Shown: positions 3,543-46,047, numbered from the stretch's first letter. The stretch: 64,000 nucleotides of DNA from Candidatus Acutalibacter stercorigallinarum (GCA_019112625.1 DXIW01000021.1:24345-88344), one strand, 5' to 3'. The notes: generated by a model from the sequence alone, not told the origin. A program made the numbers and translations.

Positions 3543-4754
3543 TTATAATTTTACCCGGAAGCAGATCTTGTCCCCCTCCAGGCCCAGGGCGGTGATGTCC
3601 CCGCCCTGGCGCTGGGCGATGCCCTTGGCGATGGACAGCCCCACCCCAAAGCCGCTGCCGTAGGTGCGGGCCGAGTCCCCCCGGTAGAACCGGTCGAACA
3701 GCCGGGGGAGGGGCAGCTCGTTTACGTGCTGGCAGCTGTTGTCTACAGTGAGCACCGGCCGCCGCCTCCCCGAAAGACCCACCCAGATGGTGCCGCCTGG
3801 GTCACAGTACTTCACCGCGTTGTCCAGCAAGATGGACACCAGCCGCCGCAGGGCAGCCTCGTCCCCCTTCCACCACAGGGAGGAGGGGCCCTCCATGACC
3901 AGCTGTTTCCCCTGGCGTTCCGTCACCGGGGAAAAGGCGGAGGCCGTGTCCCACACCGCCTGGGCCAGGTCGAAGGCTTCCGCCTGCAGGGGGGCTTCCT
4001 CGTCCAGGCGGGCCAGGTCCACCAGCTGGCACACCAGGTCCGTCAGGGTGGCGGTCTCCTCCTTCATGTCGGAGAGCCAGGGGTTTGGGCCCACGTCCCC
4101 CTCCAGGATGTCCAGGTTTGTCTGGAGGAGGGTGAGGGGCGTTTTCAGCTCGTGGCTGGCGTCGGTGACGAACTGCCGCTGGCGCTGGTGGCTCTCCGCC
4201 ACCGGGCGCACCGCCCCTTTGGAGAACACCACCACCAGCAGCAGGGCCGCCAGGCTGCCCGCCCCGAACACCAGGCACGCCGCCATGAGGAAGGCCCGGT
4301 CGGCGTCCAGCATCAGCGCCCCGCTGACGCACACCACGGCAGTCCCCTTTTCAGACTCCCACACCTTAAAGCGGTACTCCCCCACCCAGCCCCGCTCCCT
4401 GTTCTCGTCCAGGGCCTGCCGGGCCAGGTCCTCCGCCTCCTCCTGGCTCACGCTGGCGATGGAGTTTACATTGGCGGCGGCCTCCCCGGTGTCCGGGAAG
4501 GTGACGGTGAAGAACCGGGTGGTGAAGGGGGCCTCCGGGTCCCGCTCGGCAGGGCGGGGGTCCTCCTGGGGGCCGGGGGGCTGGAAGTCCGGGAATCGCC
4601 CGTCGTTTTCCGAGACGATGTCCGCCAGGTCATCCAGGGAGGCGGCGGTCTGCAAATAGGTGATGAGGAAGATCCCGGAAAACAGGGCGGCGAACACCCC
4701 CAGGAAGGACAGGGTGCAGATCCAGATGAATTTCCGGCGCAGGCGGAAGATCAT
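3543..4754 (-). CDS. Sensor histidine kinase (HisKA/HATPase_c)
   Basis: TM segments, DASHELKTPLTLLQ H-box, N box LLDNAVKYCD, G box GFGVGLSIAKGI; start overlaps RR stop (ATGA). Confidence 0.93.
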   Translation of the reverse strand: MIFRLRRKFIWICTLSFLGVFAALFSGIFLITYLQTAASLDDLADIVSENDGRFPDFQPPGPQEDPRPAERDPEAPFTTRFFTVTFPDTGEAAANVNSIASVSQEEAEDLARQALDENRERGWVGEYRFKVWESEKGTAVVCVSGALMLDADRAFLMAACLVFGAGSLAALLLVVVFSKGAVRPVAESHQRQRQFVTDASHELKTPLTLLQTNLDILEGDVGPNPWLSDMKEETATLTDLVCQLVDLARLDEEAPLQAEAFDLAQAVWDTASAFSPVTERQGKQLVMEGPSSLWWKGDEAALRRLVSILLDNAVKYCDPGGTIWVGLSGRRRPVLTVDNSCQHVNELPLPRLFDRFYRGDSARTYGSGFGVGLSIAKGIAQRQGGDITALGLEGDKICFRVKL

Positions 4755-15462: not shown

Positions 15463-15885
15463 ATGTCCCATGAGATTATGAGCGTAAAGCTGTGCGAGCT
15501 GGACGAGCGGATTGCAAGGCTTCACAGCCGGGTGCGGCTGACGGAGACCACGGACACCGCCGCCCTGCGCCGGGAAGTGAAATCCCTGGAGCGCCAGTGC
15601 GCGGAGACAGCCATGACACTGCGTCAGAAGCTGGGCTACACCAAAGGCACCATCGCTGGAGAGCTTTGTGAGACCTACGAAACCGCGGAAAACCGAATGG
15701 ACGGGATGCGGCGGCGCCTGGCGGGCATCATCGCCCGCAGCGAGGCCCCGGCGGAGGAGGAGACCCTGTTGGCGGAATACGCTCTGGACTTCGCCCTGCT
15801 GGCCGCCGACCGGGCGCTGCTGCTTTCCATGAAGGCCATCTGCGCCCAGCGGGACGCGGAACGAGAGGAGAGAAAACTGTCATGA
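15463..15885 (+). CDS. Small helical/coiled-coil protein, unknown function
   Basis: RBS AAGGGGAGAG; ATGA overlap with ftsH-like gene; charged helical composition. Confidence 0.7.
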   Translation: MSHEIMSVKLCELDERIARLHSRVRLTETTDTAALRREVKSLERQCAETAMTLRQKLGYTKGTIAGELCETYETAENRMDGMRRRLAGIIARSEAPAEEETLLAEYALDFALLAADRALLLSMKAICAQRDAEREERKLS

Positions 15886-17708
15886 AAGAGATAAAATCCA
15901 CGAAAAAACCCCTCATCTACTACGGGCTCATCGTGCTGGCGGTGCTGCTGCTGTTCAACATGCTCATCACGCCCATGATCGCCCAGCGCCAGGTGGTGGA
16001 GGTGGACTACGGCACCTTCGTCCAGATGGCGGAGGAGAAAAACCTGGGCCTGGTAGAGGTGGACGAGACCGAGAACCAGGTGGTGTTTACCGACAAGGAC
16101 AACACCACCGTCTACAAGGCGGGGATGATCCCCGACCCGGACCTGGCGCAGCTGCTGAAGGACTCCGGGGCCGCCTATTCCGGGCAGATTCTGGAGCAGG
16201 TGAACCCCCTCATCAGCTTCCTCATCAGCTGGGTGCTGCCCATCGCCCTGTTTGCCGCGTTGGGCTATTACATGAACAAAAAGCTGATGCAGCGGGCCGG
16301 GGGCCCCAACGCCATGCGTTTTGGCAAGGCCAACGCCAAGGTGTACGTCCAGTCCACCAAGGGCATCAAATTCGCCGACGTGGCCGGGGAGGACGAGGCC
16401 AAGGAGAGCCTGGCGGAGATCGTGGACTACCTCCACGACCCAAAAAAGTACACCGAGGCGGGCGCCGCCATGCCCAAGGGCATTTTGCTGGTGGGCCCTC
16501 CCGGTACCGGCAAGACCATGCTGGCCAAGGCCGTGGCCGGGGAGTCCGGCGTTCCCTTCTTCTCCATGTCCGGCTCGGAATTTGTGGAGATGTTCGTGGG
16601 CATGGGGGCCAGTAAGGTCCGGGACCTGTTCCAGCAGGCCAAGGAGAAGGCCCCCTGCATTGTGTTCATCGATGAGATCGACGCCATCGGCCAGAAGCGC
16701 AACAGCGGCAACTTGGGCGGCAACGATGAGCGGGAGCAGACCCTGAACCAGCTCCTCACGGAGATGGACGGCTTTGAGGAGAACACCGGTGTCATCATTC
16801 TGGCGGCCACCAACCGCCCGGAGAGTCTGGACCCCGCCCTCACCCGTCCCGGCCGGTTCGACCGGCGGGTGCCGGTGGAGCTCCCTGATTTGCAGGGCCG
16901 GGAGGCCATTTTGAAGGTCCACGCCAAGAAGATCCATGTGGCCCCGGACGTGGACTTCCACACCATCGCCCGGATGGCGGCGGGGGCTTCCGGCGCGGAG
17001 CTGGCCAACATCATCAACGAGGCCGCCCTGCGGGCGGTGCGCAACCACCGGAAGGTGGTCACCCAGGCGGATTTGGAGGAGAGCATCGAGACGGTCATCG
17101 CCGGGTACCAGAAGAAGAATGCCGTCCTCTCCGACAAGGAGAAGCTCATCGTCTCCTACCATGAGATCGGCCACGCATTGGTGGCGGCCAAACAGTCCCA
17201 CTCCGCCCCGGTGCAGAAGATCACCATCATCCCCCGCACCAGCGGCGCTTTGGGCTACACCATGCAGGTGGACGCCGGAGAGAAGAACCTGCTCTCCAAA
17301 GAGGAACTGGAAAACAAGCTCGCCACCCTCACCGGCGGCCGGGCTGCAGAGGAAGTGGTGTTCGGCTCCGTTACCACCGGGGCCAGTAACGACATCGAGC
17401 AGGCCACCAAGCTGGCCCGGGCCATGATCACCCGCTACGGCATGAGCACGGACTTCGACATGGTGGCGTTGGAGACGGTGCAGAACCAGTACCTGGGCGG
17501 GGACACGTCCTTGGCCTGCTCCGCCGAGACCGCCGCGAAGATCGACCAGCAGGTGGTGGAGCTGGTGAAGTCCCAGCACGCCAAGGCAAAGCAGATTTTG
17601 ACGGAGAACAGCGCGAAGCTCCACGAGCTGGCGAAATACCTCTACGAGAAAGAGACCATCACCGGCCAGGAGTTTATGGACATTCTGGAAGGGGGCGGCG
17701 CAGCATGA
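15882..17708 (+). CDS. ftsH: ATP-dependent zinc metalloprotease FtsH
   Basis: Two N-terminal TMs, Walker A GPPGTGKT, Walker B CIVFIDEIDAIG, SRH, HEIGH, GASNDIEQAT. Confidence 0.95.
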   Translation: MKEIKSTKKPLIYYGLIVLAVLLLFNMLITPMIAQRQVVEVDYGTFVQMAEEKNLGLVEVDETENQVVFTDKDNTTVYKAGMIPDPDLAQLLKDSGAAYSGQILEQVNPLISFLISWVLPIALFAALGYYMNKKLMQRAGGPNAMRFGKANAKVYVQSTKGIKFADVAGEDEAKESLAEIVDYLHDPKKYTEAGAAMPKGILLVGPPGTGKTMLAKAVAGESGVPFFSMSGSEFVEMFVGMGASKVRDLFQQAKEKAPCIVFIDEIDAIGQKRNSGNLGGNDEREQTLNQLLTEMDGFEENTGVIILAATNRPESLDPALTRPGRFDRRVPVELPDLQGREAILKVHAKKIHVAPDVDFHTIARMAAGASGAELANIINEAALRAVRNHRKVVTQADLEESIETVIAGYQKKNAVLSDKEKLIVSYHEIGHALVAAKQSHSAPVQKITIIPRTSGALGYTMQVDAGEKNLLSKEELENKLATLTGGRAAEEVVFGSVTTGASNDIEQATKLARAMITRYGMSTDFDMVALETVQNQYLGGDTSLACSAETAAKIDQQVVELVKSQHAKAKQILTENSAKLHELAKYLYEKETITGQEFMDILEGGGAA

Positions 17709-39940: not shown

Positions 39941-40445
39941 ATGGAGGAGTTTGAAAGGCTGCTGGAAGCGGTGCGGCCACCGGTAGAACGCTTTGTCCAG
40001 TTTCGGATCAACAGTCAAATGGATGCGGATGATGTGCTGCAGGAAGTTTTTTTTGGCTGCCTATCAGAATTTTTCCCAGCTGCGGGACAAAAGCGCCTTT
40101 AAGCCGTGGATTTTGCGCATTGCGAAAAATAAATGCAACGACTATTTCCGGCGGCGGGCGAAAACGGCAGAGGTCCCCTGGGAGGAGATGGAGGAAGCCG
40201 CGTGGAGCTATGGCCGTTCCGGCCTGGCGGAACCTGGATTGGTCCAGGAAGTTTTAAGCAGCCTTCCTGACAGGGATCAACAAGTCCTGTCGCTGTTTTT
40301 CTTGCAGGGATTTTCCCAGGCTGAAATTGCGGAAAAGCTGCGCATACCGTTGGGGACCGTAAAAAGCAGGCTTCATACCGCAAAACGAAATTTCAAAACC
40401 AGTACCCATATCCTGTTTCTGTGGCGAAAGGAGAGAGGTCTATGA
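39941..40445 (+). pseudogene. ECF-type sigma-70 factor, frameshifted at a T8 tract
   Basis: RBS AAAGGAGGTGAT; DADDVLQEVF then frame lost at TTTTTTTT (40047-40054); removing one T restores ...EVFLAAYQNFSQLRDKSAFKPWILRIAKNKCNDYFRR plus region 4. Confidence 0.85.
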
Positions 40446-41221
40446 AAAAGCTGCCAGAAATCCTTCCGGAATACCGTATTCAAAAATCTGAGCAAGAGCC
40501 ATTCCCGGTTGTTTGGGAGGAGCTTTGGGGATTGTTTATCATTCCGCGGGAAGGCGAACGCCTGACTTGGGCCAGGTATGATCCCGACACCCGCAAATGC
40601 GCGGAGTGGAGCGAAATGGCCGTGCTCGGGAAAGCGCAGGTACACGGTGTGGAAGGGGTCGAGATCAGAGAGGACCGGCACGATCATTTCGGGCCGGGCT
40701 AAGATGATCGGAAGCACTATTATGTGGCCCAGCTCACCGATACGCATTGCCGCATCCTGGCGGAGATTTACCTTCGGGATGGAGTGCGGAAGTATCTTAC
40801 CTTTTTAGACGGGGACCCCTTCCTTGTGGAGTGGGGCTATGGGGAAAACAACTGCGGCAGAGAGATCCACGGACTGCCTGAGGGCAGGATCGCGGAACAG
40901 GATGGGAGGCTTACAGCCGAAAACACGGAGCAGTTATGGGACCTTGTGGGCCGGTACAGCGTCTCTCTGTTGGGAAAAACATACGATACGGTAAGAGCGC
41001 TCAGCCTGGATTCCTATGAGGGGCAGTATGTCGCCTGTGAACAGTATTTGGACCGGGAGGGACGTACCGTATTGTGGCGCAGGTTCAACCGGGACGACTG
41101 GAATGTCGGCCGCGGCCAAAAGAAATGGAGCGAGCGGTACCCAGACCATGACCGGCTGCTCATCAACGGCACGGTCTATACCCACTGGTATGACTGCATT
41201 ACGGATCATATCCTTCCATAA
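40442..41221 (+). pseudogene. Unknown protein paired with the sigma factor, interrupted by an in-frame TAA
   Basis: ORFs 40442-40702 and 40724-41221 are in one frame: ...HDHFGPG*DDRKHYYVAQLTDTHCRIL... Confidence 0.7.
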
Positions 41222-41341: not shown

Positions 41342-42646
41342 TCAAACCGCCACAGGAACCACCCGCCACTCCCCCCGGATCTTCTCAATGTCCACAGCGG
41401 ACAGCAGTTTCTTTTCCGCCAGGGCTGCGGCCAGCTTCTCAAAAAACTCCCGGTTGGTGGAGATGACCTCCTTGGCTTTGCGGTAATACCGCTCCACTTC
41501 GGCCGCTGCCGCCTGTTCCAGGCTGGCTTTGAGATGCTCAGACTCGGAATAGCCCCGCGAGTAGAAGGAAAACCCGTTGATACAGGTATCGGAGAGCAGC
41601 TCTCTCTCCTTGTCAAAAGCATGGTCCAAATCACTGGAACAGCCAATGTCGGGGAGCCCGAATTTCTGCTCCATGGCCGCCGGCCCTCCCAGGGCGCTCA
41701 CAATCCGACTTTTTTGCCAATCTAGGAGGGACATACCTTGGGTGCGGAAATAGCTGGTAACCCCTCCCACCTTCTGCCTTCCGCTGCCGACGTACACAAA
41801 GGTCACGCTTCCCGGACAGAGCACCTCGGAAACCAGGGCATGGCCGGCCTCATGGTAGACCATCTGGGAAGCCATGTGATGGGGATCGGTGTAGTGGCGG
41901 AGAAAATCCTCCTGCCCATCCCCGTGAAAATCCATCTCAAAAACCGTGCGCAGGCAAGCTTTCAAAACGTGCTCCATTGTAATGTGTTCCGCTCGTTCGT
42001 ACCCGGCGGACAACCCGGCCTCGTTGATGACGGTTTCCAAGTCGGCGCAGGAGTGCCCGTTCATAATCCTCGCGATGACGGCGGGGTCAACTCCCTCCAC
42101 AAAGCGCTTGGATTTTAGGTAGTAGGCAACAATTTCGATGGCGTCCTCCCCCTTAGGGGCCTCTACCTCGATGGTGCGGTCAAACCGGCCCGCCCGCTGC
42201 AGGGAATCGGGGAGACAGTCGGTGTCGTTGGCGGTGGCCAAAACGAACACCTCCTTGCCTTTTGTCTCATCGATGCAGGACTGCACCGTGACGTACTCCT
42301 CCGCGTCGGGGTGGTTCTCGTCCCCGTTGGCGAACTTGTCCATGTCGTCCAGGAACACGATGGAGGGAGCATTCTCCGCGGCCTTTTCAAAGGTGGCCTT
42401 GATCTTCTTGACAAAGTCGCCGTTGGGCTCGTCCTTCCGGCAGCGGAACACAGGCCGCCCGCTCTCCTCTATGACGGCGCTGGCCATCAGGGATTTGCCC
42501 ACCCCTGGCTCCCCGTAGAGCAGCAGCCCCCTGGGGGCGGAGACTCCCAGCTTGTCATAGAATTCCCGATTTTTCAGCGTGTCGCTGATTTGCATGAGCT
42601 CTTGCTTGAGGGACGCGTACCCGATGATCCTGTCAAACGCTTTCAT
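41342..42646 (-). CDS. Soluble FtsH-like AAA+ ATPase / M41-like metalloprotease
   Basis: Walker A GEPGVGKS, Walker B SIVFLDDMD, HEAGH, GCSSDLDHA third-ligand region; no TM segment. Confidence 0.9.
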   Translation of the reverse strand: MKAFDRIIGYASLKQELMQISDTLKNREFYDKLGVSAPRGLLLYGEPGVGKSLMASAVIEESGRPVFRCRKDEPNGDFVKKIKATFEKAAENAPSIVFLDDMDKFANGDENHPDAEEYVTVQSCIDETKGKEVFVLATANDTDCLPDSLQRAGRFDRTIEVEAPKGEDAIEIVAYYLKSKRFVEGVDPAVIARIMNGHSCADLETVINEAGLSAGYERAEHITMEHVLKACLRTVFEMDFHGDGQEDFLRHYTDPHHMASQMVYHEAGHALVSEVLCPGSVTFVYVGSGRQKVGGVTSYFRTQGMSLLDWQKSRIVSALGGPAAMEQKFGLPDIGCSSDLDHAFDKERELLSDTCINGFSFYSRGYSESEHLKASLEQAAAAEVERYYRKAKEVISTNREFFEKLAAALAEKKLLSAVDIEKIRGEWRVVPVAV

Positions 42647-42653
42647 AAAAACC

Positions 42654-42682
42654 ATCCTTTCGTGTTGTTGTGACGAAAGGAT
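42654..42682. promoter_or_regulatory. Inverted repeat overlapping the RBS of the AAA+/M41 gene
   Basis: ATCCTTTCGT-9 nt-ACGAAAGGAT; on the minus strand the AAAGGAT arm is the RBS before ATG at 42646. Confidence 0.6.
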
Positions 42683-42767
42683 ACCACGGCCCATGTCCAT
42701 TTTTTCTCCCATGGCCTCTTGTAGAATACAGTCGATGGGATTACAATAGAATCATGAGGTGATGCAC

Positions 42768-43823
42768 ATGGCAGCCGCGCAGCCCAAAAAGATGCTGATC
42801 ATGCATATTCTGGGCATTTTGCGAAAATACACCGACGAGGACCACCGTCTCAGCCAAAAGGAGATCGGGGAAATCTTAAAGAACGAATACGATATGGTGG
42901 TGGACCGAAAGTCCATCAAGCGGAACCTGATGGACCTGATAGACCTGGGGTTCGAGATCGAGTACAGCGAGTCGGTGCGCTTGGTGCCAAACAAGGTAAC
43001 AGGCCAGCTGGAGGAGAACTGCTTCCTCTCCGACTTTTACCTGGTCCGGGATTTTACCGACAGCGAGCTGCGGCTGCTCATCGACAGCCTGCTGTTCTCC
43101 AAGCACATCCCCTACAGCCAGTGCAAAGAGCTCATCGGCAAGCTGGAGGGCCTGTCCAACCGGTATTTCCGGGCCAGGGTGGGGCACATCCGCACCATGC
43201 CGGACCTGTCCCTCCACAGCCAGCAGTTGTTTTACACCATCGAGGTGCTGGACGAGGCCATCGGCAAGGGGCGGCAGGTGTCCTTTACCTACAACAGCTA
43301 CGGCACCGACAAGAAGCTCCACCCCCGCCGGGACAGCGCCGGGAACGTCCGGGAGTACATCGTCAACCCCTACCAGATCGCCGCGGCCAACGGGCGGTAT
43401 TACCTGATCTGCAACTACGACAAGTACGACAACGTGGCCCACTACCGGCTGGACCGGATCACAAACATAAAATTGCTGCCCACCCCCGCCAAGCCCATGG
43501 AACAGGTGAAAGGGCTGGAGCACGGCTTCGATCTGCCCCGTCACATGGCGGAGCACGTCTATCTATTCGCGGGGGAAAGCGGGCCGGTGACCTTCCGGGC
43601 CAAAAAGTACCTGCTCAACGACATCCTCGACTGGTTCGGGGGCGGCGTCACCTTCTTTGACGAGACCGAGGAGGAGGTCAGCGTCCGGGTGCGGGTGAAC
43701 TACGCCGCCATGCGCCGCTGGGCGCTGCAATACGCCCTCCACGCGAAGCTACTGTCGCCGGAGTCGTTGGTAAAGCAGGTGCGGGAGGACATCCGGGCGG
43801 CTATGGAGAATTACGGGGAGTAA
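42768..43823 (+). CDS. WYL-domain transcriptional regulator
   Basis: N-terminal HTH plus WYL-type region VSFTYNSYGTDKKLHPR...YIVNPYQIAAANGRYYLICNYD; start may be 42759 or 42762. Confidence 0.9.
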   Translation: MAAAQPKKMLIMHILGILRKYTDEDHRLSQKEIGEILKNEYDMVVDRKSIKRNLMDLIDLGFEIEYSESVRLVPNKVTGQLEENCFLSDFYLVRDFTDSELRLLIDSLLFSKHIPYSQCKELIGKLEGLSNRYFRARVGHIRTMPDLSLHSQQLFYTIEVLDEAIGKGRQVSFTYNSYGTDKKLHPRRDSAGNVREYIVNPYQIAAANGRYYLICNYDKYDNVAHYRLDRITNIKLLPTPAKPMEQVKGLEHGFDLPRHMAEHVYLFAGESGPVTFRAKKYLLNDILDWFGGGVTFFDETEEEVSVRVRVNYAAMRRWALQYALHAKLLSPESLVKQVREDIRAAMENYGE

Positions 43824-43838
43824 AGGCGGGAAGAGAAA

Positions 43839-44966
43839 ATGGAAGAGAATACGTCGAAGTATGAACGCCTGTTTCAAACAATCCAAGAACGCATGCAGCA
43901 TGGCCCCGTCAGGACTGAGAAAAGCAACACGTTCAATATTTTCCGGGTTTTGGGTATCGCGGACAAAGAGGTCTTGCTCTGCAGGCTGCTGGGGGATCTG
44001 TTGGCTCCCAACGGTTCCCACGGATTAAACGAAAAGCCGCTCCTGGCTTTTCTGGAGCAGCTCAACATAGCGGACCAATTTCCGCTGGACGCAGTCAAAA
44101 GAGCTTACACGGTTTTGGAAGAGGCTGTGGACGGCGACCGCAGAGCGGACATTGTCATTCACATAGGGGATGGGGTCATTCCCATAGAGGTAAAGATCTG
44201 GGCTGGGGACCAGGCCAGTCAGCTTTACGACTATTACCAGTATTTCGCCAAAGTGAGGCCCCAGAACAAGACACGGAAGATCTACTATCTTACCCCGAGC
44301 GGACGTGCCCCCTCGGACATCAGTATCAGCAGCCCGGATAATCACCAGCGGCTGTCGCCCGGGCAATACCAGTGCCTGTCTTTCCGCAAGGACGTTTCCG
44401 AGTGGATCAACCGCTTGCTTGGGAAATGCGGCGGCAGCTTAGGCGAGATTTTGCGGCAGTTTCAAGAGGTGATAAACGATATGTGCAGCGAGGATACGAT
44501 CTTACGGATCATCAAGGAAGCCGTTCATTTAGGAGAGGGACACTTTGAAAGGAACAGCAGCCTGGAGGCGCTGCTCCTGATTTTAGAGGCCAACAAAACA
44601 AATGAGTTGTGGAGGGCAATTCGAAAAGAATACCTGCGCCAGAATTTGCAATTCGACAAAACCAAGTATCAGCTGGTAGACGTTTCGGAGGAAGAAAAGA
44701 GACACGCTATTTTCGCCGTAAGAGCCGTGGAGACCGGGAAACAGATCGCCTGGATCTGCGTGGACACCAACTTGTACATCGTGGCGAACGCCCTGAAGCC
44801 GGAGTACGAAAACCAGCCCGAATGGGTAAAAGAGAACGGCTCTGTCTGGCGGTACGTAAGTCCCCGTGGCGGCAACGAGTGTTTTCCCTTAAGAAATCCC
44901 ACCACCAGTATCATAACGGAGTCCACCCTCGAGATTGGAGACCTCCTGGACCAGATTTCATTCTGA
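43839..44966 (+). CDS. PD-(D/E)XK nuclease family protein (PDDEXK_4-like)
   Basis: NIFRVLGIADKEVLLCRLLGDLLAPNGSHGLNEKPLLAFL; catalytic DIVIHIGDGVIPIEVKIWAGDQASQL. Confidence 0.88.
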   Translation: MEENTSKYERLFQTIQERMQHGPVRTEKSNTFNIFRVLGIADKEVLLCRLLGDLLAPNGSHGLNEKPLLAFLEQLNIADQFPLDAVKRAYTVLEEAVDGDRRADIVIHIGDGVIPIEVKIWAGDQASQLYDYYQYFAKVRPQNKTRKIYYLTPSGRAPSDISISSPDNHQRLSPGQYQCLSFRKDVSEWINRLLGKCGGSLGEILRQFQEVINDMCSEDTILRIIKEAVHLGEGHFERNSSLEALLLILEANKTNELWRAIRKEYLRQNLQFDKTKYQLVDVSEEEKRHAIFAVRAVETGKQIAWICVDTNLYIVANALKPEYENQPEWVKENGSVWRYVSPRGGNECFPLRNPTTSIITESTLEIGDLLDQISF

Positions 44967-44971
44967 ATGTC

Positions 44972-45018
44972 AATAGACAGGCTGGAACACCTTCGCGGTG
45001 ATCCATCCTGTCTTTTTT
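44972..45018 (+). terminator. Probable intrinsic terminator
   Basis: GACAGG...CCTGTC followed by TTTTTTT. Confidence 0.6.
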
Positions 45019-45096
45019 TGATACAACAGGGCTGCTGATGTCCCAAATTTTCCCCATACCCTGTGCTATTCTTTTCCCAGAAAGGGGGAAGGCGCT

Positions 45097-46047
45097 ATGG
45101 AATGGAACTGCGCCCATTGTAGCAGCCAATGCCTGCGGGAGATGGAGGACTCCATCTGTGTGTTTGTGAAGGATTTTTCCCACGTGCCATTTCCCAGGGA
45201 GGAGGCCAGAGCCTATTGGAGGAAGTATAAAAAGCTGCCCACCTTGCGGTTTTGCCTGCCGGAGGGGCGGTACCTCATGGTCCGGCAGGTGGGGCCGCTG
45301 TTTGAAAGATTAGGGCACCTGTGCTACGGCATGGCGGAGGTAAATCATTTTGTGGATTTCCCGCGGACCAGCTGGGCAGGGTATTACGACTACTGGAATG
45401 AGAGAAATGCCATCCCGCCCCAATATCACTCCCTTGGCCGGGATGGCAGTTTTACAGCGGAGGGGTACGCATTGGTCCGCGGGGAACCCCAGCGGATCGA
45501 TGGGAAATGGCAGGAGAAGTACACGCTGATCGACCGGACGGGTGAGAATACCAGCGGGAATTTCTTTCAGTACATGGATCGTTGTGCGTTCTTTGATGAC
45601 CTGCTGGGTTACAGCGTCCGCATCGGGAAGCGATACGGCTTTGCGGACTATACCGGACAGCTCCTTGTCCCTTGCCAGTATGAAAAGGAGATCCACCTGT
45701 TTCCCGTGGCAGGGCGGTACCAGTTTGTGCAGGGGGAGGAGGGGCGCGGCGTGGTTCCCTTGCCGGGAGCCGGCCCCGGCGAGGACGCCCTCTATCAGGC
45801 AATCCAGAGGCATTGGGAACAGGAGACCCTGGAGCAGCGCCCCGACCCCTTGGGGGAGAGCGCAGAACATTTTCTCCGGGAGACGGGCCTGTTTGAGGAG
45901 CCCATCCGGAAGGAGCAGGGCAGGGACCCGGCCCGCCCGAATTCCCGCCATTTCAGGGTGGGACTGCAGCCTGGCCATTGGGCGATTTTGCGCTGTACGT
46001 GGGCGGAAAGCGCGGCTGACTACATGTGTGCCCACCTTGCTTTGTAG
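45097..46047 (+). CDS. Unknown protein with N-terminal CxxC-type motif and WG-repeat-like segments
   Basis: RBS AAAGGGGGAAGG; CAHCSSQC; YTLIDRTGE.., YGFADYTGQLLVPCQY resembles WG repeat. Confidence 0.65.
   Translation: MEWNCAHCSSQCLREMEDSICVFVKDFSHVPFPREEARAYWRKYKKLPTLRFCLPEGRYLMVRQVGPLFERLGHLCYGMAEVNHFVDFPRTSWAGYYDYWNERNAIPPQYHSLGRDGSFTAEGYALVRGEPQRIDGKWQEKYTLIDRTGENTSGNFFQYMDRCAFFDDLLGYSVRIGKRYGFADYTGQLLVPCQYEKEIHLFPVAGRYQFVQGEEGRGVVPLPGAGPGEDALYQAIQRHWEQETLEQRPDPLGESAEHFLRETGLFEEPIRKEQGRDPARPNSRHFRVGLQPGHWAILRCTWAESAADYMCAHLAL

Follow-up and report, generated by a model that had tools for sequence, protein, structure and literature searches.

What joins a soluble protease, a transcription regulator and a nuclease that lie side by side in a bacterial genome? 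We addressed this question at positions 41342-44966 of a 64,000-nucleotide stretch of the gut-type Clostridia bacterium Candidatus Acutalibacter stercorigallinarum (GCA_019112625.1 DXIW01000021.1:24345-88344), the whole of which is called the window here. An initial annotation had proposed that the AAA+/M41 protease, the WYL regulator and the PD-(D/E)XK nuclease encoded there form an undescribed defence-like module, with the protease gating the nuclease or the pair acting like a toxin. In this study, the three open reading frames (ORFs) were confirmed at their positions, intact and with the domains assigned to them, and one operator type was found to serve them and a WG-repeat gene. We consider it probable that the cluster is a DriD-like WYL regulon, responsive to damage or infection, in which the WYL-nuclease, protease and WG units are driven jointly via this operator. 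The features of the cluster are as follows.

41342..42646 (ORF to 42712), minus strand: soluble AAA+/M41 (FtsH-like) zinc metalloprotease, 434 amino acids (aa) from the likely start, assigned from Pfam, AlphaFold and motifs
42678..42683, minus strand: TATCCT, the protease -10 box, at 9 bp from the opposite side of operator 42693..42712
42693..42712, no strand: palindromic operator ATGTCCATTTTTTCTCCCAT, common to the protease and WYL genes that flank it; matrix score 25.9 in the WYL direction and 16.1 in the protease direction
42722..42727, plus strand: TAGAAT, the -10 box for the WYL-nuclease operon; 9 bp separate it from the operator, a spacing conserved in most WYL orthologues
42768..43823, plus strand: winged helix-turn-helix (wHTH)-WYL-WCX transcription regulator (DriD/PafBC-like), predicted controller; Pfam WYL 7.4e-14, WCX 2.2e-5
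43839..44966, plus strand: PD-(D/E)XK (PDDEXK_4) nuclease, PADLOC candidate PDC-S26, in an operon with the WYL gene after a 15-bp gap
44972..45017, plus strand: terminator-like 20-nt inverted repeat with a T run, predicted to close the WYL-nuclease operon
45038..45057, plus strand: second operator, 5' of the WG-repeat gene; matrix score 21.2, rank 2 in the window
45067..45072, plus strand: TATTCT, the -10 box for the WG-repeat gene, at a distance of 9 bp from operator 45038..45057
45097..46047, plus strand: WG-repeat protein of unassigned function, 316 aa, predicted third regulon unit; Pfam WG_beta_rep 5.1e-6; operator 25 bp upstream

The cluster holds three transcription units, namely the WYL-nuclease operon, the divergent protease gene and the WG gene, and all three have the same type of operator. 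At each promoter the 20-bp palindrome sits at the -35 position, 9 bp from the -10 box, and no consensus -35 was found in the cluster promoter regions. Upstream of WYL genes the operator takes the form RATGNNC-A/T-rich-GNNCAT, 9 bp before TANNNT. To test the sites, we built a matrix from six WYL promoters of other genomes, none of them in the window and all at loci that lack the protease. Among about 128,000 window positions, the three highest scores were those of the WYL (25.9), WG (21.2) and protease (16.1) promoters, followed by 14.1 and then 8.6. A scan of the 2.19-Mb genome for patterns with at most two mismatches, which weaker sites could escape, gave 15 matches; the cluster sites scored 26.3, 20.4 and 16.5, and the next 8.5. 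Operator 45038..45057 was the only match with at most one mismatch in this genome. Relaxed genome-wide motif searches of this kind were used for ranking only. Because the same operator stands upstream of it, the WG-repeat gene was counted in the cluster, which is, as judged from its operators, a larger unit than the protease, WYL and nuclease genes.

We next considered how often the genes occur together. The protease was detected in 11 of 197 genomes of the order (E<=1e-45) and in 9 of 391 genomes of the class (E<=1e-60), and the distribution is patchy, with at most 6-8% of order genomes. Further protease loci were found in Bacilli, in a metagenome-assembled genome of Coriobacteriaceae, on one viral contig and on the Butyrivibrio plasmid pCY186; the last two were the only ones of matching kind in searches of phages, plasmids and viral contigs, and a search of phage records with the protease gave only FtsH-like matches at about 30% identity. 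In the order sample, the WYL family (E<=1e-50) was present in 9 of 11 protease genomes compared with 9 of 186 others (Fisher, 2e-9). Linkage was counted over 26 loci found via protease searches alone, several of them cut by contig ends. The WYL gene was adjacent or one gene away in ten of these (the window itself, W, and L019, L020, L021, L031, L032, L055, L056, L057 and L058) and within about 10 kb in four more (L022/L108, L026, L035 and L064), and two further linked cases were found in genomes G725 and G739. The pairs were arranged divergently, in tandem and convergently. Most protease loci had no nuclease. Within the genus, at the search thresholds, the protease was absent from the one other genome sampled, and the WYL and nuclease genes were absent from all three.

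Relatives of the nuclease were found in 8 of 394 order genomes. The four best, the window included, all lie near the WYL family and all match PDC-S26. The nuclease stands directly 3' of the WYL gene in the window and in G764 and G766, and the latter two have no protease. In G639 it lies at most 5 kb from the WYL gene, with a protease remnant and RtcB between them and all four inside 7 kb, and the nuclease is intact. The conserved-neighbourhood check did not refute the linkage proposed earlier, as WYL-protease and WYL-nuclease pairs recur in other genomes. Since the nuclease and WYL genes occur without the protease (G764 and G766) and all four best nucleases are near WYL, the WYL gene is, in terms of gene neighbourhood, the hub, and the protease and nuclease are interchangeable cargo. 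These results establish, at the level of sequence, the sharing of the operator, the promoter geometry, the missing consensus -35 and the co-occurrence. We infer that the WYL protein is a DriD/PafBC-type activator and that the soluble AAA+/M41 protease is its most frequent partner.

The operator was then followed into relatives. Within 160 bp upstream, 13 of 21 protease homologues had a site scoring at least 10, whereas only 25 of the 227 other genes of these loci did (Fisher, 3e-7); most of the protease sites lay 31-54 bp 5' of the start. The promoter geometry of the protease gene, with 9 bp from operator to -10 box, was repeated in L019, L020 and 13 of the 21 homologues. The proteases of L059 and L061 have strong operator sites and no WYL gene nearby. 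In the anchored loci, among which L140 and L142 had been fetched for holding operator sites, 84 sites scored at least 14 compared with 8 in reversed sequence, and 62 of the 84 had an ORF of at least 100 aa starting within 130 nt. In 22 genomes selected because they carry the WYL family or the protease, the pattern matched perfectly at 27 places and its reversed form at 6; in 20 other genomes the counts were 4 and 2.

As for the genes behind these sites, the operator precedes an RtcB gene in G007, which lies 47 kb from the WYL-protease pair and shares 72% identity with the RtcB that adjoins WYL-protease in G149. It also precedes NADAR genes in G007 and G032, a Pol III alpha-like gene in G125, metallophosphatase genes in relatives, and LigA-like, GyrA/ParC-like, DnaB-like, SNF2-like, UvrD and reverse transcriptase genes elsewhere. 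The RtcB and NADAR genes of G007, the Pol III-like gene of G125 and the SNF2, DnaB-like, GyrA/ParC-like, LigA-like and UvrD genes were counted as targets unlinked to the cluster. The replication-type proteins, whose roles are predicted, are often short (DnaB-like, 235 aa; GyrA-like, 394 aa; Pol III-like, 480-530 aa). Some members resemble known or candidate defence proteins, namely NADAR (PDC-M42C), SNF2 (like DrmD) and a Mrr-type protein. Plasmid pCY186 carries six sites scoring at least 22, all in a 12-kb replication/WYL/protease block, where they precede the WYL gene, a hypothetical gene, dnaX, a Pol III-like gene, the protease gene and a PolC unit. A weaker bidirectional operator-like palindrome (143675-143724; L177 about 4670-4730) lies about 130 bp before the McrBC operon of this plasmid, which is probably under the same operator. 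The regulon is better read as spanning replication, DNA-repair and RNA-repair genes besides the cluster's three genes.

Several other observations were made in the same loci. The McrBC operon of pCY186 ends with a second WYL gene. In L019 (2516-6190), genes for DnaG/Toprim-like and UDG-like proteins, a metallophosphatase and RtcB come after the WYL-protease pair. We rejected the idea that RtcB is a constant neighbour under an operator of its own, as only the unlinked G007 copy has one and the in-cluster copies do not. Between the WYL and protease genes of L022 (10836-18774)/L108, there is an operon-like run of an SNF2-like helicase, a MoxR AAA protein, DUF2201 (metallopeptidase and VWA-like) and an AAA protein; relatives of these genes also adjoin WYL in L096 and L169. 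Reverse transcriptase genes recur near the WYL family in L096, L099 and L103, and an operator-like site lies about 150 bp before the one at 14368-15966 of L099. Contigs C5, C8, C13 and C33 of G020 contain ATGTTGCATNNATGCAACAT palindromes in many nearly identical copies, which may be a further dispersed operator or repeat.

The protease ORF, 41342-42712(-), matched Pfam AAA (1.4e-23) and Peptidase_M41 (2.6e-10). Position 42646 is the likelier start than 42712, because homologues begin there, a Shine-Dalgarno (SD)-like GAAAGGA lies upstream and the longer frame would cross the promoter. The HEAGH motif (H265-E266-xx-H269) and the Asp third zinc ligand D339 were invariant in 19 homologues, and the sensor-1 Asn and both arginine-finger residues were invariant across homologues. 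No transmembrane helix was found in the protease, its maximum 19-residue hydropathy being 1.34 versus 2.58 for the canonical membrane FtsH of the same genome, a separate gene at window positions 15882-17708; the homologues likewise begin at the AAA domain and have no N-terminal transmembrane anchor. The AlphaFold model (pLDDT 87) matched FtsH structures in Foldseek (E 8.9e-26). The early description of the protease, with the Walker A/B region, HEAGH, the third ligand and no transmembrane helices, was borne out; it had overlooked that Walker B is DD, not DE, and that four residues are missing relative to the FVG pore-1 loop of FtsH, both in the protease and in all homologues.

Two known systems were considered for the protease and set aside. 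IetA profiles match it via the AAA domain only (1.2e-21), NCBIfam IteA gave 63 bits, below the cut-off of 510, and no IetS-type serine-protease domain was found in the neighbouring proteins scanned. The MoxR-vWA FtsH ternary system (PMC7159879) was rejected, as the protease has a single AAA domain and MoxR and vWA are absent from the window cluster; MoxR/DUF2201 genes do accompany the protease in G032. Several homologues have a hydrophobic C-terminal tail (VPVAV, TEVAV, INVAV or LPLAV), possibly a degron or docking tail. A perfect 10-nt inverted repeat with a 9-nt spacer (ATCCTTTCGT/ACGAAAGGAT; window 42654-42682) overlaps the protease -10 box and SD. It was set aside, as it was not seen in the upstream sequences of L019 and L020.

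The nuclease matched Pfam PDDEXK_4 (8.4e-23) with D104...E117-V-K119 intact and the D-ExK-Q residues present, which confirmed the earlier assignment of a D-x-ExK nuclease 15 bp behind the WYL gene. The defence-like content proposed for the locus also gained support, as a PADLOC run assigned the nuclease to candidate PDC-S26 (hidden Markov model (HMM) match, 1.3e-43). For the WYL model, Foldseek ranked DriD (4.6e-13) and PafBC (5.4e-12) first, and BrxR/CapW came later (E about 2e-6). This is suggestive of a WYL protein that resembles the single-stranded DNA-activated DriD and PafBC more than the repressors BrxR and CapW, in a model of low confidence.

In the mechanism that we propose, DNA damage or infection would yield single-stranded DNA or another nucleic-acid ligand, which would bind the WYL domain. 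The WYL dimer, sitting on the operator over the -35 position, would recruit RNA polymerase, and the nuclease, protease and WG genes would be co-expressed. The nuclease may attack or process damaged or foreign DNA, and the soluble FtsH-like hexamer may unfold and degrade cytosolic substrates such as damaged or phage proteins. Alternatively, the protease may remove regulon members in recovery, as the Pup-proteasome does for PafBC-regulon proteins.

Several points weigh against this mechanism. The WYL protein may instead be a repressor, because BrxR too binds inverted repeats and yet represses a defence island (PMC9122601). The fold ranking of DriD is only supportive, at a pTM of 0.48 and TM-scores near 0.45. 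The operator motif was first spotted by eye in an alignment that contained the window, hence the window-free matrix, and genome-wide pattern counts at one to two mismatches are near the control level in many genomes. Eight of the 21 protease homologues have no site scoring at least 10, some of them being operon-internal or near contig ends. The unfoldase activity of the protease is uncertain given the DD Walker B and the shortened pore loop.

A wider reading of the same activator is a tentative one. A DriD-like WYL activator of Clostridia from gut and rumen may run a backup set of replication and repair paralogues, often in shortened form (Pol III alpha, DnaX, DnaB, DnaG/Toprim, gyrase/topo IV A and ligase), together with RtcB for RNA repair, NADAR for the handling of ADP-ribose, nucleases and the soluble FtsH-type protease. 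Under phage attack or severe DNA damage, this set would stand in for the host replisome, act as its decoy or shield it. The protease would then clear the response, which would make the circuit a one-chain counterpart to the actinobacterial PafBC-proteasome circuit.

It is unlikely, in our judgement, that the cluster is instead an anti-phage module silenced by a BrxR/CapW-like WYL repressor, which a ligand formed on infection would release, leaving the nuclease and protease to kill either phage or cell. The PDC-S26 nuclease, the NADAR, SNF2 and Mrr-type members, the probable operator near McrBC on pCY186 and the repression by BrxR are all consistent with it. However, the palindrome replaces an otherwise absent -35 at a fixed distance from the -10 box, which is the DriD activator layout, DriD and PafBC are the best fold matches, and repair or replication enzymes make up many of the targets. 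An activator could also serve a defence purpose.

The WYL protein might also drive the replication and maintenance genes of a plasmid or island, of which the local copy would be a decayed or reduced island. This is the more improbable explanation, although the pCY186 operators precede WYL, dnaX, Pol III-like and PolC genes and the distribution is patchy. The G+C content of the locus is also low (0.545-0.58 versus 0.60-0.67 across most of the window), and a broken sigma pair adjoins it. Against this, no replication gene, integrase or tRNA was seen in the cluster, the regulon genes are spread over chromosomal-type contigs in G007, G032 and G764, and the mobile-element searches gave a single viral contig and only the distant FtsH-like phage matches. 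The sigma pair consists of an ECF (extracytoplasmic function) sigma-like gene (window 39942-41221, plus strand), whose frame shifts at a T run near 40045, and a following frame interrupted by a stop at about 40700; together they are probably a decayed sigma/anti-sigma pair. The initial annotation had taken this module and the gene at 45097-46047 as signs of an accessory region. The second has the same operator as the cluster, whereas the sigma module, though present and broken, has no WYL operator.

We regard the view that the protease is an antidote or trigger of a PDDEXK nuclease toxin as very unlikely. The two genes are adjacent and divergent from one operator, but each usually occurs without the other, as in most protease loci and in G764 and G766, and in G639 the nuclease is intact beside a mere protease remnant. 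That the genes are unrelated neighbours with chance operator matches and no common regulation is hardly credible. The own-genome pattern count at two mismatches does equal the reversed control (15 versus 14), but the three cluster sites score far above the other matches and sites recur before orthologous genes in many genomes.

No prior description of a WYL/RtcB/FtsH regulon in Clostridia was found in the literature searched, which supports the earlier view of the module as undescribed. The parts come from families already known, and their circuit is similar to WYL damage responses described before; the regulon itself appears largely undescribed. WYL damage-response activators have so far been studied in Actinobacteria and Caulobacter, and here the same switch stands before DNA-repair, RNA-repair and replication genes in many relatives, which points to a stress or defence programme. 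RtcB, NADAR, PDDEXK_4 and probably McrBC genes would be tied to a single regulator, and the soluble AAA+/M41 protease gains a testable biological context. The operator alone now reveals unlinked regulon targets, and Butyrivibrio proteoclasticus B316, which carries pCY186, is a named, sequenced host suited to a direct test.

Among the closest known systems is DriD of Caulobacter crescentus, a WYL activator of an SOS-independent DNA-damage response. DriD is activated by single-stranded DNA, binds a 20-bp pseudo-palindrome over the -35 at a constant distance from a weak -10, and has the nuclease gene bapE, recJ and dnaG among its targets (PMC12340889). The cluster shares with it the wHTH-WYL-WCX architecture, the operator of about 20 bp over the -35, the fixed spacing and the best fold match, and differs in operator sequence and phylum, with 17-19% identity in structural alignments. 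We know of no FtsH-like protease reported in the DriD regulon. PafBC of Actinobacteria is likewise activated by single-stranded DNA (PMC11804915). Its genes belong to the Pup-proteasome locus, and the protease of that locus clears regulon proteins once damage is over (PMC8223512). There too a WYL activator with a repair-gene regulon lies beside an ATP-dependent cytosolic protease; however, PafBC is a heterodimer with a Pup-tagging 20S proteasome, whereas here the protease is a one-chain AAA+/M41 enzyme and no Pup-like partner was seen in the cluster. The protease has the AAA+ plus HEAGH metalloprotease fold, arginine fingers and Asp third ligand of FtsH, and differs in having no transmembrane or periplasmic part, in its DD Walker B and in its shorter pore-1 loop. 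BrxR and CapW are similar in that a WYL regulator with inverted-repeat operators lies beside defence-type genes, but the operator position in the cluster fits activation and the fold match is weaker (about 2e-6 versus 5e-13). PDC-S26 is a candidate single-gene PDDEXK_4 defence system, which the nuclease resembles in its HMM match and intact catalytic residues; here, in contrast, the nuclease is not stand-alone and belongs to a WYL operon and its predicted regulon.

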